From Peptococcaceae bacterium (lineage in GTDB: Bacteria > Bacillota > Desulfotomaculia > Desulfotomaculales > Desulfocucumaceae): 64,000 bases of DNA. Location of the stretch: the NCBI GenBank assembly GCA_023512435.1, contig JAILZP010000002.1:62001-126000 (forward strand), in the 5' to 3' direction. Positions 20,895-52,110 of this stretch are shown here, in pieces; within the stretch, counting starts at the first letter, position 1, and every line of letters starts with the position of its first letter. Below the pieces are notes generated by a model. It did no database searches, was not told the origin of the DNA, and saw only the letters and a program-made list of their open reading frames with translations. The position numbers and the translations under genes were made by a program.

Positions 20895-21527
20895 CTAACT
20901 GTTCAATATGCATGTGTTGGAGTTTCTTCTTATGGCAATCAGAAAGACATCGGTTATTTCAGGGTCGAATTGAGTGGATCTGCCCGCTTTTAACCTGGTA
21001 ACCGCTTCACGGTGGGAAAATCCCTTTCTGTATGGGCGTTCGGACGTCATGGCTTCATACGCGTCGGCCACTGCAATTATGCGGGACAAAAGCGGGATGT
21101 CCGCACCGGAAAGCCCGTCGGGATAACCGCGTCCATTAAAGTATTCGTGATGATAGAGGACAATATCGGCATAACGCGCGTAGCCTTTTATTTTCCGGAG
21201 AATGTTCCGGCCGGTCTGGGGATGCCTGCGGATGACATCAAGTTCGCAATGGTTAAGGCTTTCTGTTTTTAACAATATTTCGGGCGGGATAAACAATTTT
21301 CCTATATCGTGCAGAAGGGATGCCGTGAAAAGGTTTATTATACTTTCTTCCGGGAGTTTCAGCTCACGGCCGGTCATCAGGGCGTAGTCGGCCACCTTGA
21401 TCGAATGGAGGCCTATTATCTCATCCAGTGTGCCAAGAAAAGAAATCAGTTCACCGTTTCGGCCTTCTTTATCTGCTGCGGATATCTCATTTAATTTTTT
21501 AATTACGTCGGCAGTTTTACCCTTCAT
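20895..21527 (-). CDS. HD-GYP domain phosphodiesterase
   Basis: 210 residues, a stand-alone HD-GYP domain that would hydrolyse c-di-GMP. The motifs are complete: LLHDIGKLFIP, the metal His residues in RRHPQTGRNIL and YHHEYFNGRGYPDGLSG, and the signature ending VADAYEAMTSERPYRKG. About 50 helical N-terminal residues come first, with no receiver or PAS domain, so input is unclear. ATG at 21527 with GGAG upstream. It is one of three c-di-GMP turnover proteins in the window. Confidence 0.9.
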   Translation of the reverse strand: MKGKTADVIKKLNEISAADKEGRNGELISFLGTLDEIIGLHSIKVADYALMTGRELKLPEESIINLFTASLLHDIGKLFIPPEILLKTESLNHCELDVIRRHPQTGRNILRKIKGYARYADIVLYHHEYFNGRGYPDGLSGADIPLLSRIIAVADAYEAMTSERPYRKGFSHREAVTRLKAGRSTQFDPEITDVFLIAIRRNSNTCILNS

Positions 21528-23342: not shown

Positions 23343-23460
23343 GTTTATCTTTTAAAAATTAAAGGATTAGGGAGAAATATGTTGTATTAGAAAATATATT
23401 CAAATTTTTTGACGAAATTACCACAGGTTGCAACGCTTCCGCGCAAAGGAGGGCCCCGGC

Positions 23461-26400
23461 ATGTCAATGGACGATTTTTTGAACTTCTTAAAAATATTGC
23501 CAATACCCGCGTACCTGATCCAGGGCGCCAGCCTCCGCATGGGTAACCCGGCAATGGCCCGGATTACCGGGTACTCGGTGGAAGAACTGGCCGGAATGCC
23601 CATTGCCGGACTGGTTCACCAGGAGGACCTGCCCCGGATAAACGACGTGTCACTGCGCTTCCCGGCCGGCGGAGACGATCCTGTGAATCTGGAGTGGCGG
23701 GCTGTGGGACGCCGGGGAGAAGTGATCCACCTGCGGGGCTGGCATTCCCGCGTAAAATTTGACGGCCGCCCGGCGGTTTTGGGCCTGGCCGTGGACAACC
23801 CCGGGCAGAAGAGGACGGCCGAAGAAATAGAAAAAAGCGAGGCCAGGTTAAGGGAGGTGCTTGATGAAATTGAAGACGGGTATTACGAGGTTGATCTCGC
23901 GGGCAACTTCACCTTTTTCAACCGTTCACTGTGCCGGATAGGGGGATACTCGCCCGGAGAACTGAAAGGCATGAACTACAGGAGTTACACCGCCCCGGAG
24001 AAACAAGAAGCCGTCTTCAGGACGTTTAATAAAATATACACAACCGGGCAGCCGGTTAAACTGTTCGACTACATAATTTTGCGAAAAGATGGTTCAAAGA
24101 GGTTCGTTGAAAATTCCGTGTCCCTGATCAGGGATTCGGAAGGCCGCGGAATTGGTTTCCGCGGCATTGTCAGGGACATCACCGATCGCAAGCTGGAAAA
24201 AGCGGAGCATGATCTCCTGAAAGCATATTTTAAGGAGCTGTTTGACAATTCGCCGGAAGGGATCGCCATCATTGACGGGAATGACAGGTTTGTCCAGGTC
24301 AACAGGGGGTTTGAAAAGATTTTTCAGTACTCCGCCGGGGAAGTCAGGGGCCGCCGGGTTAATGAACTTATTGTCCCGCCCGAACTGTCCGGTCAGGCCA
24401 CGGACGTGTCCCGGAGGGCCCTGGGCGGCGAAGTGGTCCAGATGGAGACGGTGAGAAAGCGCAAGGACGGAAGCCTTGTGGACGTGTCCATACTGGCCTA
24501 CCCCATCGCTCCCGGCGGCGGGCAGGCAGCCATCTACGTCATGTACAGCGATATCACCGAGCGCAAAAGGGCGAGGGAGGAGCTGCAGGCCCTCAATGAA
24601 GAGCTGGAGGCCGCCAACGAAGAGCTGATGGCGGCCGAGGAGGAACTGAAGCAGAAGCTCGCGGAGTTGCAGAAAAGCGAGCGGGCCCTGCGGGAGAGCG
24701 AGAATAAATACCGCCAGCTGTTTCATAATGCCAATGACGGCATTATCCTGGTCGAGGTGAAGGACGACCAGAGGCTCGGGCGGGTTATCGAGGTAAACGA
24801 CGTTGTCTGCAAAATGCTGGAGTACGGGAGGGAAGAATTCCTCACCCTGACGGTCCTGGATCTCGTGGTTGGGGACCAGCTGAACCGGGTTCACGAAATC
24901 ACCAGGGCGGCCCTGGTCCAGGGGAGGAGCACCTTCGAATTAACCTGCGTTTCCAAAAGCGGGCATAAAATACCCCTGGAGATCGGCTGCCATATTTTCA
25001 CCCTGAACGGCGAGAGGGTGGGCCTGCTGGTGGCCCGGGACATCACCGACCGCAAGCTGGCCGAAGAAAAGCTCCGCGCCGCCAACCGGCAGCTTCAGGA
25101 CATAATCGAGTTTCTGCCCGATCCCACCTTTGCCCTGGACATAGAGAAGAAAGTAATTGCCTGGAACAGGGCCATCGAGGAGATGACCGGGGTGCCCAAG
25201 GACCAGATTGTCGGCCTGGGCGATCGCGCCTATTCTGTTCCTTTTTACGGTATGCCCAGGCCCGCCCTGATTGACCTGATCTTCTCGGATGACCGGGAAA
25301 TAGCGTCGTTGTACGATAATATTGAAAGAAAGGGGGATACCCTGTTTACCGAGGCTTTCGTGCCGTCGCTTTTTGAAGGCAGGGGAGCGTACATATGGGT
25401 AAAGGCTTCGCCGCTTTACGACAGCCGCGGAAATGTCGTCGGGGCCATCGAGTCAATCCGGGACATCACCGACCGCAAGAGGGCGGAGCAGCAGCTTAAG
25501 TATTTAAGCCTGCACGATCCCCTCACCGGGACCTACAACAGGGCGTATTTCGAGGAGGAAATGCGGCGCCTGGAGGGCAGGAGGCACAAGCCGCTGGGGA
25601 TAATAGTATGTGACATCGACGGCCTGAAACTGGTCAACGATACCCTGGGGCACAAGTGCGGGGACGACCTTCTGGCGGCGGCGGCGGCCGTGATCAAGGA
25701 GTCTTTTCGCGAAGGGGACATGATCGCCAGGATAGGCGGTGACGAATTTGCGATCCTCCTTCCGGACAGCGGCCGGGATGTTGTTGAAGGCGCCTGCGCC
25801 AGGATCAGGACGGCCGTGGCAAGGTATAACGAGAAAAACCCCGGACTGCCCTTGAGCATGTCCATAGGCTTTTCCGTAAGCGGACAGCCGGGGGTCAGCC
25901 CGGCCGAACTCTTTAAAGAGGCCGACAACAGCATGTACCGGGAAAAGCTGCACCGCAGCCAAAGCGCCCGCAGCGCCATCGTGCAGACCTTGATGAAGGC
26001 GCTGGAGGCCAGGGATTTTATCACCGAGGGCCATGCCGAAAGACTGCAGGATTTGGTGACGGTTATGGCCAGGAGCATCGGATTGCCGGAGCAGAACATC
26101 ACCGACCTGCGTCTTCTGGCCCAGTTTCACGACATAGGAAAGGTGGGTGTTTCGGACCGCATCCTTTTCAAACCCGGCCAGCTTACCCTGGAGGAAGCCG
26201 CCGAAATGCACCGGCACTGCGAGATAGGGCATCGCATAGCCCAAACGGCGCCCGGCATGGACCACATCGCCGACTGGATCTTGAAGCACCATGAGTGGTG
26301 GAACGGCAACGGCTATCCCATCGGGCTGAAAGGGGAAGAGATTCCGCTGGAGTGCCGCATCCTGGCCATAGTGGACGCATACGACGCCATGACCACCGAC

Positions 26401-26529
26401 CGGCCCTACCGTAAGGCCATGTCCCATGAAGAGGCGGTGGCCGAACTGAAAAGGTGCGCCGGGACGCAGTTCGATCCGGACCTTGTGCCGGTCTTCATTC
26501 AGGCTTTTGAAAAAGGAAAAAATTCATGA
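23461..26529 (+). CDS. Five-PAS GGDEF/HD-GYP c-di-GMP signalling protein
   Basis: 1022 residues, no membrane segment. Five PAS-like domains (about 5-125, 130-250, 265-385, 425-540, 545-675) are split by a coiled coil of ELQALNEELEAANEELM type. They lead to a diguanylate cyclase domain with intact GGDEF (near 759) and a C-terminal HD-GYP domain with HDIGK (near 889) and HHEWWNGNGYP (near 942). Both catalytic halves look active, so it could make or degrade c-di-GMP depending on the PAS signals (redox, haem, FAD or ligand; unknown). ATG at 23461 with AAAGGAGG. The genes on both sides encode CxxCxxCC proteins. Confidence 0.92.
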   Translation: MSMDDFLNFLKILPIPAYLIQGASLRMGNPAMARITGYSVEELAGMPIAGLVHQEDLPRINDVSLRFPAGGDDPVNLEWRAVGRRGEVIHLRGWHSRVKFDGRPAVLGLAVDNPGQKRTAEEIEKSEARLREVLDEIEDGYYEVDLAGNFTFFNRSLCRIGGYSPGELKGMNYRSYTAPEKQEAVFRTFNKIYTTGQPVKLFDYIILRKDGSKRFVENSVSLIRDSEGRGIGFRGIVRDITDRKLEKAEHDLLKAYFKELFDNSPEGIAIIDGNDRFVQVNRGFEKIFQYSAGEVRGRRVNELIVPPELSGQATDVSRRALGGEVVQMETVRKRKDGSLVDVSILAYPIAPGGGQAAIYVMYSDITERKRAREELQALNEELEAANEELMAAEEELKQKLAELQKSERALRESENKYRQLFHNANDGIILVEVKDDQRLGRVIEVNDVVCKMLEYGREEFLTLTVLDLVVGDQLNRVHEITRAALVQGRSTFELTCVSKSGHKIPLEIGCHIFTLNGERVGLLVARDITDRKLAEEKLRAANRQLQDIIEFLPDPTFALDIEKKVIAWNRAIEEMTGVPKDQIVGLGDRAYSVPFYGMPRPALIDLIFSDDREIASLYDNIERKGDTLFTEAFVPSLFEGRGAYIWVKASPLYDSRGNVVGAIESIRDITDRKRAEQQLKYLSLHDPLTGTYNRAYFEEEMRRLEGRRHKPLGIIVCDIDGLKLVNDTLGHKCGDDLLAAAAAVIKESFREGDMIARIGGDEFAILLPDSGRDVVEGACARIRTAVARYNEKNPGLPLSMSIGFSVSGQPGVSPAELFKEADNSMYREKLHRSQSARSAIVQTLMKALEARDFITEGHAERLQDLVTVMARSIGLPEQNITDLRLLAQFHDIGKVGVSDRILFKPGQLTLEEAAEMHRHCEIGHRIAQTAPGMDHIADWILKHHEWWNGNGYPIGLKGEEIPLECRILAIVDAYDAMTTDRPYRKAMSHEEAVAELKRCAGTQFDPDLVPVFIQAFEKGKNS

Positions 26530-28283: not shown

Positions 28284-28316
28284 AAAAAATGGCCTCCCCT
28301 GAGGGAGGTCATTTTT
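28284..28316. terminator. Bidirectional terminator between dam and the Spo0E-like gene
   Basis: GGCCTCCC / GGGAGGTC arms (one G-T pair), 4-nt loop, five T on the plus strand and six T on the minus strand. It can end both convergent transcripts. Confidence 0.8.
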
Positions 28317-28325
28317 GGCCTGCCG

Positions 28326-28481
28326 TTAAAATATGCCTATCGGGTTGGTTTTAAGCCGGTAGTAGTCATTTAGCAGCCGGTCAAGTTCCCTGCTCAGTTT
28401 AAGCCTTTTCTCAGGGTTGTCCGTATCGTACAGCCGCCTTCTCAATCTTGCAATGCGAATCAACAGTCCGGGCATGTTCAC
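28326..28481 (-). CDS. Spo0E-like aspartyl-phosphate phosphatase
   Basis: 51 residues: two predicted helices with the signature LSRELDRLLNDYYRL, matching the SQELD core of the Spo0E family. An upstream helix is RIARLRRRLYDTDNPEKRL. Family members dephosphorylate Spo0A~P and hold back sporulation. Start is GTG at 28481 with TTTGGGGGTGAT at good spacing; the length is normal for the family. It lies 131 nt downstream of a c-di-GMP riboswitch terminator on the same strand and is the only gene in that transcript, so c-di-GMP probably controls it. Confidence 0.8.
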   Translation of the reverse strand: MNMPGLLIRIARLRRRLYDTDNPEKRLKLSRELDRLLNDYYRLKTNPIGIF

Positions 28482-28576
28482 GGAATATCACCCCCAAAGG
28501 CAATTTTTTTGATGATATCAAAAATACTCTTTTGTTGAAACATTTTTCCTCTTTTTTGTTAAAATAAGCAGGCTAA

Positions 28577-28605
28577 TTGACAATATATATGTTTTACCGG
28601 ATAAT
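28577..28605 (+). promoter_or_regulatory. Possible antisense promoter facing the riboswitch
   Basis: TTGACA (28577-28582), 17-nt spacer, GATAAT (28600-28605) on the plus strand, reading across the terminator and aptamer in antisense. No plus-strand gene lies downstream. The match is close to consensus but the region is AT-rich. Confidence 0.35.
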
Positions 28606-28611
28606 CGGTGG

Positions 28612-28642
28612 AAAAAAAAGCCTTTCTCCGCGGAGAAAGGCT
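28612..28642 (-). terminator. Rho-independent terminator of the c-di-GMP riboswitch
   Basis: Perfect palindrome AGCCTTTCTCCG / CGGAGAAAGGCT (28619-28642), followed on the minus strand by seven T beyond the stem. It starts 12 nt past the aptamer, the usual place for an expression platform. Confidence 0.85.
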
Positions 28643-28654
28643 AATAAAGCTATT

Positions 28655-28738
28655 ATTTCGGCAACCTGGCGATCATAGCTTCCGGCCTTAGACCCATGGT
28701 TTTGCGTCCCCGCCTTTCGGCGGGTGTGCCTTTAGCGC
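28655..28738 (-). ncRNA. c-di-GMP-I (GEMM) riboswitch aptamer
   Basis: Read on the minus strand, the sequence has the GEMM-I layout in order. A 5' GGCACACC (consensus GGCAAACC) comes first, then P2 CCGCC-GAAA-GGCGG with the GAAA tetraloop (28710-28723), the GGGACGCAAA core and the tetraloop receptor side CCATGGGTCTAAGGCC. A 3' GCCAGGTTGCCG closes P1. An intrinsic terminator follows and then only the Spo0E-like gene. An AAGCTAT in the P3 region can pair with ATAGCTT just past the aptamer (28645-28652), a possible switching element. On or off behaviour cannot be decided by eye. Confidence 0.88.
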
Positions 28739-28832
28739 TTTTTTCTATGCAATTTTATCACTTTTTGCCTGCGAAATATGAAAAATTATGTCGATTAAAT
28801 AAAATTTTTTAGAATTTGTTAAAGAAAGGACC

Positions 28833-29474
28833 CTATCGTTTTAGAGCCAGGGCGCCCACCGGGCAGGCTTCGGCGCAGGCGCTGCATCCGCTGCAGCCGC
28901 TCTCCCCCAGGGGGGCTTCCAGGAAGGTGGTTACCATCCGGTCAAAGCCCCGTTTTGCAAAGCCCAGGGTTCCGGAGCCGGTTTTTTTGCAGGTCCACAC
29001 GCAGCGGCCGCAAAGCACGCACTTGTTGGGATCGTAGATTATACTTTCCGCCGTGTCGTCCACCGGCAGGTTCCGGTCCAGCTTTTCCAGCCGCCCGGGT
29101 TTAAGCCGCAAACCCCTTTCTTTGGCGATTTTTTGCAGGGCGCAGCTGCGGTTTTTGGGGCAGACCCCGCATTCGGTGCGGTGGTTGGACATGATCATCT
29201 CGAAGCCTGTTCTGACCAGACGATCCACCCTTTCGCTGCGGGTGCGGACCGCCATTCCTTCGGCGGCCCCCTCGGTGCAGGCGGTCACCGGGCCGGGGTA
29301 CCCCTCGATCTCCACGAAGCACAGCCTGCAGGAGGCGAAGGGGGAGTGGTTTTCCCGGATGGAGCAGAGATGCGGGATGTAAATGCCGTTGTCCAGGGCG
29401 GCCCACAATATTTTTTCGCCGGCGGCGGTTTCAATCGCCTTTCCGTCAATGGTTATCCTGACTTTTCCGCTCAT
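28833..29474 (-). CDS. 2Fe-2S / 4Fe-4S electron-transfer subunit (NuoG N-terminal type)
   Basis: 213 residues. An N-terminal [2Fe-2S] ferredoxin fold (HLCS, SCRLC, TACTEG ligands) is followed by a His-Cys cluster motif HRTECGVCPKNRSC and two C-terminal [4Fe-4S] sites (CVLCGRCVWTC; CSGCSACAEACP). This matches the small subunit of NADH-linked hydrogenase or formate dehydrogenase modules. It lacks the molybdopterin or H-cluster domain. It overlaps nuoF by 29 nt, so the three genes form one operon. The catalytic partner must be encoded elsewhere. Confidence 0.88.
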   Translation of the reverse strand: MSGKVRITIDGKAIETAAGEKILWAALDNGIYIPHLCSIRENHSPFASCRLCFVEIEGYPGPVTACTEGAAEGMAVRTRSERVDRLVRTGFEMIMSNHRTECGVCPKNRSCALQKIAKERGLRLKPGRLEKLDRNLPVDDTAESIIYDPNKCVLCGRCVWTCKKTGSGTLGFAKRGFDRMVTTFLEAPLGESGCSGCSACAEACPVGALALKR

Positions 29475-50773: not shown

Positions 50774-52024
50774 TCAGACGCTTACGCGGTTTCTACCGTT
50801 TTCCTTGGCCCGGTAAAGGGCTTCGTCGGCCGCCCGGATAACCTCTTCGGCCGTGTTAAGGCGTCCTGTCCTCTCCGCCGCGCCTATGCTCACCGTAATT
50901 TGGACCTTTGTGGAGGACCCGCTGCCCGGCCTGATCCGGTCGGGCTTATTTTTCGGCCGGTCTTTCCCCCGGATGGTGAACGGCCGGCGGGCAATGGCCT
51001 CCCTCAGTTCCTCCAGGTGGGGGACCACCTGGTTCAGCCTCCGGCCGGGAAAGAGGATGGTGAATTCCTCCCCGCCGTACCGGAAGGCTTTCCCTCCGCC
51101 GGAGACTCCGCCGATCAGGGAGGCCACGAATTTCAGCACCTCGTCCCCCACATCATGACCGAAGGTGTCATTAAATTTCTTAAAATAGTCTATGTCCAGC
51201 ATGGCAATGGTGTACCTGCCGTCCAGCTTGGCCATTTCCTCCCGGAGGGCCCGGCGTCCCGGCAGTCCGGTCAGTTCGTCGAGGTAGGCCTTGCGGTACG
51301 AGTCCTGGATTACAGCCGAGGTCAGCATGACCCCTGCCGCCGAGAAGAAGACTCCCGGGGACAGTTCTCCGCCCCGGTGAAGCGCCAGGGCAAGAGAGAC
51401 CAGGGCACCAGCAAACCAGCCCTCCGCGGGGGATCCGGTCAGCATCAGCCTGCCCGCAAAAGCAAGGAAGGAAACAAGAAATGCTGCTATGGCAATTCCG
51501 GGGATGGGCGAGGGCGGGCTGAGCGGGAGTATGTCCGCCTTGAAGAGGCCCGCCAGCCACCGGGGACCTCCCCCCGCCGCCCAAAGTGCCAGGAAGGCCT
51601 GGACCGCGATGAAAACAAAGCGCACTCTCCCCCTGGAGGTGAATACGCCCTTTTCCCCGACCCGGGAGAATACAAGGAGGCTGACCGGCAGCAACAGGCA
51701 CACCGCGAAATAGATAACATCCTTTGAAAAACGGGTCCCAAACCAGCCCTGGGGAGAAGCCGCCAGCGCAAGGTAGCCGAGGGACGCCGCCAGGGCAGAG
51801 AAAAACACCCGGCTGTTGTTGAACCAGTAACTCAAAAAAAGCCCCAGGGCGAACACAAAGTGGGGCAAAAACCCGATCAGGGGATAGAGGGCCGGGGTTA
51901 TTTCCACCGTCCCGGCGGAAAGCAGGTGCGCCGCAATAAGCAGCCCCAGCGGAAGAGAGAGAGGCGCCATTTTTTCGGCGGTCCCCCGTATATTACGGCG
52001 GTTCCTTCTCCTTTGGCCGGTCAC
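50774..52024 (-). CDS. Membrane-bound GGDEF diguanylate cyclase
   Basis: 416 residues. About seven hydrophobic segments fill residues 20-235. The C-terminal diguanylate cyclase domain follows (DELTGLPGRRALREEM; DIDYFKKFNDTFGHDVGDEV; RYGGEEF near 313; ADEALYRAKENGRNRV). The active site GGEEF is intact. The usual RxxD inhibitory site upstream is absent (SGGGKAF), so product inhibition may be missing. The membrane part resembles no sensor I know. GTG at 52024 with GGGAGG 7 nt upstream. Confidence 0.88.
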   Translation of the reverse strand: MTGQRRRNRRNIRGTAEKMAPLSLPLGLLIAAHLLSAGTVEITPALYPLIGFLPHFVFALGLFLSYWFNNSRVFFSALAASLGYLALAASPQGWFGTRFSKDVIYFAVCLLLPVSLLVFSRVGEKGVFTSRGRVRFVFIAVQAFLALWAAGGGPRWLAGLFKADILPLSPPSPIPGIAIAAFLVSFLAFAGRLMLTGSPAEGWFAGALVSLALALHRGGELSPGVFFSAAGVMLTSAVIQDSYRKAYLDELTGLPGRRALREEMAKLDGRYTIAMLDIDYFKKFNDTFGHDVGDEVLKFVASLIGGVSGGGKAFRYGGEEFTILFPGRRLNQVVPHLEELREAIARRPFTIRGKDRPKNKPDRIRPGSGSSTKVQITVSIGAAERTGRLNTAEEVIRAADEALYRAKENGRNRVSV

Positions 52025-52110
52025 CGGCTTTCCTCCCAAAGAAAAAATAGGTATAATATACCTATTTCTACATTTTACGTCTTTTCCCTGTCAACTTTTT
52101 TCCGGACATG

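Follow-up and report, generated by a model that had tools for sequence, protein, structure and literature searches.

A c-di-GMP-I riboswitch ahead of a Spo0E-like gene in a Peptococcaceae bacterium, and recurrent unions of riboswitch, HD-GYP and Spo0E parts

Introduction

In C. difficile, the class I c-di-GMP riboswitches have proved to be OFF switches (PMC6200980). Sporulation genes seem to lie outside the reach of all c-di-GMP riboswitches in this species, and raised c-di-GMP lowers (early) sporulation via an unidentified pathway (PMC8653836). Spo0E of C. difficile is a sporulation repressor that binds Spo0A and affects motility, and motility is also affected by Spo0E in B. subtilis (PMC11115286); the signals behind Spo0E have been called unknown (PMC12471899). 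Closer to the organism considered here, a phosphorelay has been verified in Desulfotomaculum acetoxidans (PMC11210211).

We analysed a window of 64,000 nucleotides from a Peptococcaceae bacterium in which a c-di-GMP-I riboswitch directly precedes a Spo0E-like gene, a pairing that bears on how c-di-GMP reaches sporulation initiation. To our knowledge, a Spo0E-family phosphatase under the control of a c-di-GMP riboswitch has not been described. A sequence-only reading of the window had likewise been aware of no description of the pairing, and we found no paper describing it in the full-text literature, a source outside which most subscription papers lie. In the same literature no paper contained both Spo0E and HD-GYP; Spo0E, c-di-GMP and riboswitch occurred together only with unrelated passages on Spo0E and on riboswitches, and the listed papers naming both Spo0E and c-di-GMP had neither term in title or abstract. 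The window locus resembles Cd1, upstream of flgB in C. difficile, in its aptamer family and in the terminator that directly follows (PMC9262584, PMC6200980). It differs from the riboswitches of C. difficile in the regulated gene, which codes for a Spo0E-like regulator of sporulation. Both the riboswitch and the Spo0E part are of known families, and it is their wiring, together with the fusion described below, that appears to be new.

A c-di-GMP-I aptamer, a terminator and a one-gene unit

The sequence-only reading had placed on the minus strand a c-di-GMP-I aptamer at 28655-28738, a terminator at 28612-28642 and a single Spo0E-like gene of 51 residues, had counted three c-di-GMP turnover genes in the window, and had proposed a covariance search, an HMM search and a survey of related genomes as checks. 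Rfam identified the aptamer as the lone riboswitch in the window, shifted by one base from these coordinates (Table 1). Its match to RF03167 reached 72.2 bits (gathering 59, E 3.7e-15), and the proposed covariance search with the parent c-di-GMP-I family, RF01051, gave 81.4 bits against a gathering threshold of 35. Despite the former score, membership of RF03167 (c-di-GMP-I-GGC), a variant whose ligand has been questioned, was rejected on the distinguishing residue: the Rfam alignment places an A in the window (GACGCAAA) where the RF03167 consensus has G (GACGCGAA), the G for the stacking A being taken as the defining residue from the variant's consensus and name. Since all 13 aligned aptamers of relatives also carry A at this position, the aptamer was treated as canonical c-di-GMP-I. 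GGC, GACGCAAA and a GAAA tetraloop (GNRA-capped P2) were found in the window aptamer, and GGC and CGCAAA are invariant in the 13 relatives. The aptamer also carries G20, A47 and C92 (Vc2 numbering), which we take to be the ligand-contacting residues, and has G at the contacting position that in cGAMP sensors is presumably most often A. Judged by these residues, its ligand is likely to be c-di-GMP.

The terminator begins 13 bases past the aptamer. A scan confirmed the proposed site, with 10 pairs in a stem at 28642-28619 (minus strand), a 4-nt loop and a U-tail reaching 28612, and the segment 28605-28656 folds at -16 kcal/mol (z -3.65), a stability equalled in 0 of 200 shuffles. The Spo0E-like gene lies downstream on the same strand (terminator 28642-28612, gene 28326-28481), separated by a linker of about 130 nt. 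Because a second terminator-like site and a convergent gene, which by eye resembles a DNA adenine methylase, close the unit, Spo0E is the only gene within the riboswitch's reach; in the scan, this ORF lies alone between two terminators. A sigma-70 scan, which requires a -35 element, found no promoter with a clear -35 before the aptamer, and this weighs against the preferred reading.

Several minor features surround the unit. A 21-codon ORF (MFQQKSIFDIIKKIAFGGDIP) at 28478-28543 (minus strand) has its own Shine-Dalgarno-like sequence and overlaps the Spo0E start by GTGA; it is missing in G001, the one further genome of the genus that our search of relatives covered, and was rejected as a member of the unit. 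On the opposite strand, a promoter-like TTGACA-17-GATAAT (11/12) at 28577-28605 (plus strand) lies inside the linker, which is unconserved in G001, and faces back through terminator and aptamer, such that it could yield an antisense RNA. Upstream of the riboswitch, the gene at 28833-29474 (minus strand) encodes 213 residues that read by eye as a ferredoxin-type NuoG/HndD N-terminal module without hydrogenase domain, and it ends a NuoE/NuoF-like set.

Table 1. Positions of the features discussed, in window coordinates unless a locus is named.
Feature	Position	Strand	Basis
Candidate extended -10 element TGATAAAAT, ~7 nt 5' of the first aptamer stem strand	28752..28760	-	putative, read from sequence
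c-di-GMP-I riboswitch aptamer	28656..28739	-	RF03167 72.2 bits, RF01051 81.4 bits; 88% identity with G001
Candidate antiterminator 5' strands, AAGGC + GAAGCUAU, in aptamer P3 arm	28675..28689	-	constrained folding
Candidate antiterminator 3' strands, AUAGCUUU + GCCUU	28637..28653	-	folding
Intrinsic riboswitch terminator, 10-bp stem, 4-nt loop, U-tail	28612..28642	-	scan, folding; kept in G001
Spo0E-like gene, 51 aa, GTG start, SD-like GGGGGUGAU just upstream	28326..28481	-	PF09388, profile match, dN/dS (0.24), two-helix model
Terminator-like site ending the one-gene unit, stem 28308-28293	28285..28308	-	scan
HD-GYP motif gene	20895-21527	-	motif
PAS-GGDEF-HD-GYP gene	23428-26529	+	Pfam
GGDEF motif gene	50774-52039	-	motif
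Genes after fusions	L205:1754-3013, L208:1707-2990, L209:691-1470, L198:1015-1347, L200:1855-2235		HATPase_c_2 or STAS

The Spo0E-like protein and its genomic setting

The proposed HMM search yielded a narrow match of the 51-residue protein to PF09388 (SpoOE-like; 24.1 bits against the Pfam cut-off of 23), and this margin of about one bit weighs against the preferred reading. As the cut-off was passed by one bit only, the protein was subjected to further tests. A profile built from relatives matched the solved structures 2bzb (E 5e-8) and 2c0s (E 1.5e-4), which we take to be Spo0E-like proteins of Bacillus; single-sequence phmmer with the 51-residue protein had no match in the PDB. Structure prediction gave a two-helix hairpin (helices 4-19 and 23-45, mean pLDDT 84), for which Foldseek returned unspecific helical hairpins only, none below E 0.001. 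The signature S..LD is present as SRELD, with S and D invariant in nine sequences of relatives, and the gene is under purifying selection (dN/dS 0.235 against G001). A contig scan with the protein matched only a distant Paraliobacillus Spo0E. In size, two-helix hairpin model, SxELD signature and profile match, the protein is like Spo0E of B. subtilis and C. difficile and like 2bzb and 2c0s, and these features, with the dN/dS, mark it as a real gene of the Spo0E-like family. It is the sole Spo0E above the cut-off in its own genome, which is 88% complete.

All three c-di-GMP turnover genes counted in the window were borne out by domain or motif checks (Table 1). The genome also encodes Spo0A (156 bits) and a stand-alone SPOB_a-domain protein, which together make a phosphorelay plausible. 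The genome's three further c-di-GMP-I riboswitches (L051, L052 and L053, on contigs C2, C73 and C27) stand ahead of a HEAT/CheR set, of an HD-GYP gene and of a secreted protein that resembles a pilus chaperone; the HD-GYP gene looks 5'-cut, and a GGDEF-motif protein comes next.

Conservation within the genus and family

The proposed survey of relatives found the order riboswitch-terminator-Spo0E kept in G001, the second species of the genus (g1), where contig C204 carries the aptamer at 21-105, the terminator, and Spo0E from 216. Identity to the window is 88% in the aptamer, 84% in the terminator and 96% across the Shine-Dalgarno and start region, compared with 12% in the linker, which is about 60 nt shorter in G001. 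Since leader and gene are kept while the linker is not, the conserved part is not an internal promoter. The G001 contig (L054) opens at 1-8 with TCCGATCT, which resembles leftover sequencing adapter, and the promoter of the G001 leader is therefore not readable. Within a second genus of the same family (g2), no riboswitch was found in the sequence covered upstream of the orthologous gene in G002, G005 and G007 (about 0.6 kb for the last), which weighs against the preferred reading. These orthologues are still convergent with the methylase-like gene, and the riboswitch was apparently either gained in g1 or lost in g2. In G007, whose Spo0E orthologue lacks the riboswitch, a TwoAYGGAY RNA (RF01731, 47.1 bits; L010:1983-2140, minus strand) precedes this gene by about 350 nt.

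Riboswitches at other Spo0E loci and HD-GYP::Spo0E fusions

The survey of the order covered 113 genomes, in which both the riboswitch and Spo0E were looked for; about 150 Spo0E loci, each taken with at most 1.5 kb of upstream sequence, were then scanned using a covariance model built from 13 aptamers. A same-strand upstream c-di-GMP-I riboswitch was found at eight loci (the window, G001, G002, G022, G057, G099, G051 and G086), far more than the roughly 0.2 loci expected by chance on our own estimate, which assumes about five riboswitches per 3-Mb genome. Given shared ancestry among several of the eight, they were counted as about four independent arrangements. Control of Spo0E by the G086 riboswitch was rejected, the two being linked by proximity only with an apparent antisense regulator gene (by eye) between them.

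At four of these loci (G002, G022, G057 and G099) the Spo0E domain forms the C-terminus of a protein of 245-261 residues with an HD-GYP-type N-terminus (Pfam: PF13487 92-105 bits, PF09388 25-32 bits). Searching with the C-terminal part in 399 genomes of the phylum, plus 121 genomes around G343, raised the number of HD-GYP::Spo0E fusion loci to 18, in nine families. A c-di-GMP-I riboswitch lies just upstream in 17 of the 18, covering eight families of the phylum, among them the window's own family as represented by a different genus; the aptamer of L197 scores 41.5 bits only, and at L202, the one locus where no riboswitch was found, the fusion is interrupted by an in-frame stop. Aptamer-to-annotated-start gaps do not exceed 165 nt at the 15 loci measured, except at L203 (545 nt), and the fusion genes lie within about 100 nt of the terminator. 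The HD-GYP metal-binding motifs HS..VA, HDxGK and HHE..[DN]GxGY are kept in 15/15 fusions checked, with the final P of the last motif replaced by E, A, V or L. At L209, where Pfam reported no Spo0E, the assignment comes from an alignment search (E 1.3e-11) and the motif SRRLDRL. Additional to the 18 loci are decayed fusion remnants beside an intact riboswitch (L210-L212); in the long frames with a Spo0E match from G120, G204 and G302, no fused domain could be made out by eye.

Leader architecture and the sign of the switch

In the fusion leaders, the 3' side of the aptamer (GGUUGCCGCGAUAAAG and variants) pairs with a stretch ending in the 5' arm of the terminator (CUUUAUUGCGGCAGC). Across 15 aligned leaders, from which the differing L203 and L209 were left out, 85% of cells pair, and covariation is 0.245 compared with 0.163 in shuffles (0/500), with no slid register above 0.120. 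The same aptamer strand also forms stem P1, with covariation of its own, and in stepwise folding the antiterminator takes over while the terminator 5' arm emerges. A shared, covarying antiterminator that excludes P1, i.e. an OFF design, is thus well supported by sequence for most fusion leaders. These leaders resemble the OFF switch Cd1, in which the antiterminator is likewise made of aptamer strands (PMC9262584, PMC6200980).

For the window, the 3' strands of the candidate antiterminator (AAGGC:GCCUU and GAAGCUAU:AUAGCUUU) take in the 3' strand of P1 and the opening bases of the terminator's 5' arm. In constrained folding before the terminator 3' arm is made, this antiterminator is favoured over the unliganded aptamer by about 6 kcal/mol. 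In G001 the same antiterminator is about 5 kcal/mol worse than the unliganded aptamer, which weighs against the preferred reading. The terminator 5' arm of the window shares no bases with any aptamer strand, so that an ON design has no visible basis there. An OFF switch in the window is moderately supported, and for window and fusions alike the sign is one that we infer.

The window and the fusions have in common a c-di-GMP-I riboswitch leader and a Spo0E domain; they differ in that the fusions carry an HD-GYP domain ahead of Spo0E and often HATPase or STAS genes after it, whereas the window gene is stand-alone. Its lone position, its orthology to the g2 gene and its different leader make an independent recruitment of the window gene probable.

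The same parts were found united in other ways. In G051 the order is riboswitch-HD-GYP-Spo0E, and in G008 (L235) and G041 (L236, with a weak aptamer) Spo0E, riboswitch and HD-GYP follow one another on one strand; G388 (L233) probably has the same order, its HD-GYP being read by eye. The riboswitch of these last three loci would control the HD-GYP gene. G416 encodes a reversed Spo0E::HD-GYP fusion (L229:1630-2388; N-terminal PF09388 39 bits, PF13487 106 bits), near which a riboswitch faces the opposite way. Such repeated unions are our strongest argument for a functional link between the parts.

Proposed action on Spo0A and alternative explanations

We consider it fairly probable that the riboswitch governs elongation into the lone Spo0E-like gene, giving Spo0E at low c-di-GMP, and at high c-di-GMP termination, whereupon Spo0A~P can rise. 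The pairing put forward in the sequence-only reading is supported by the covariance and Pfam matches, the one-gene unit, the presence of Spo0A and SPOB_a proteins, conservation in the genus and recurrence in the fusions. At low c-di-GMP, aptamer strands would combine with the 5' arm of the terminator into an antiterminator, and the Spo0E-like protein would be made, dephosphorylate Spo0A~P and restrain sporulation; its phosphatase action on Spo0A is predicted from its family. At high c-di-GMP the bound aptamer would leave the terminator free, and Spo0E would drop. The sequence-only reading had named no direction. Since the leaders point to OFF switches, a rise in c-di-GMP would cut Spo0E to the benefit of Spo0A~P, and Spo0A is predicted to be held back in low-c-di-GMP cells. 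This sign is opposite to the effect of c-di-GMP on sporulation in C. difficile (PMC8653836), which weighs against the preferred reading. The window gene would be the stand-alone version of a broader wiring that places Spo0E domains, mostly HD-GYP-fused, under c-di-GMP-I riboswitches. Placed directly before Spo0E-domain genes in several lineages, the riboswitch would offer a short path from the second messenger to Spo0A.

Agreement with C. difficile physiology (PMC8653836) would be gained if the riboswitch were an ON switch, with c-di-GMP binding blocking termination, raising Spo0E and holding sporulation back, and homologous aptamers may act in either direction (PMC9262584). We regard this as improbable, given that the aptamer and P1 stop just short of the terminator 5' arm, that the fusion leaders build a covarying antiterminator from aptamer strands, and that OFF behaviour was found for the class I switches tested in C. 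difficile (PMC6200980). A promoter of the gene's own between terminator and start, with the riboswitch reduced to a short leader RNA or a leftover, would suit the length and A+T-richness of the 130-nt linker, which contains TTGTCA 16 nt ahead of a poor -10; a strong promoter was not found before the aptamer either. This explanation is quite improbable: the linker is 12% identical and about 60 nt shorter in G001, where aptamer and terminator are kept, the scan found no minus-strand promoter in it, and the fusion genes start within about 100 nt of the terminator.

Unlikely, yet deserving more weight than these, is the possibility that the riboswitch does control the gene and the Spo0E-like protein mainly targets another partner, such as a response regulator or an RstA-like motility regulator, giving a motility or surface output. 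In C. difficile, RstA is a binding partner of Spo0E, whose effect on motility does not depend on Spo0A, and B. subtilis motility is affected too (PMC11115286). Elsewhere in the genome, c-di-GMP-I riboswitches stand before a set that contains CheR, a pilus-chaperone-like protein and genes of c-di-GMP turnover, and partner-switching genes (HATPase and STAS) come after the fusions. Against this, Spo0A is the sole established target family-wide, and the protein retains S and D of the signature. That the aptamer senses another ligand, be it that of the c-di-GMP-I-GGC type or cGAMP, is highly improbable; the top Rfam family is that variant, RF03167, but A replaces its G in the window and all 13 aligned relatives, RF01051 gives 81.4 bits, the ligand-contacting position is G and not the cGAMP-type A, and GGDEF and HD-GYP genes lie within the same window.

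Returning to riboswitch control of Spo0E with action on Spo0A, a broader reading can be advanced tentatively, at somewhat less than even chances: c-di-GMP may be a general input to the Spo0A pathway in much of the phylum, with Spo0E domains, HD-GYP phosphodiesterase domains and c-di-GMP-I OFF riboswitches having been joined several times independently, as C-terminal fusions, a reversed fusion, operons and the stand-alone gene of the window. The HD-GYP::Spo0E fusion suggests a feedback gate, which would be self-reinforcing: low c-di-GMP would switch on a protein that breaks down c-di-GMP and at the same time holds Spo0A in check. If true, such a gate would separate a low-c-di-GMP, presumably motile, state from sporulation. 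The genes behind the fusions encode either a HATPase_c_2 protein of about 260-427 residues or a STAS-domain protein (Table 1), and these partner-switching parts of the anti-sigma type may share the fusion riboswitch.
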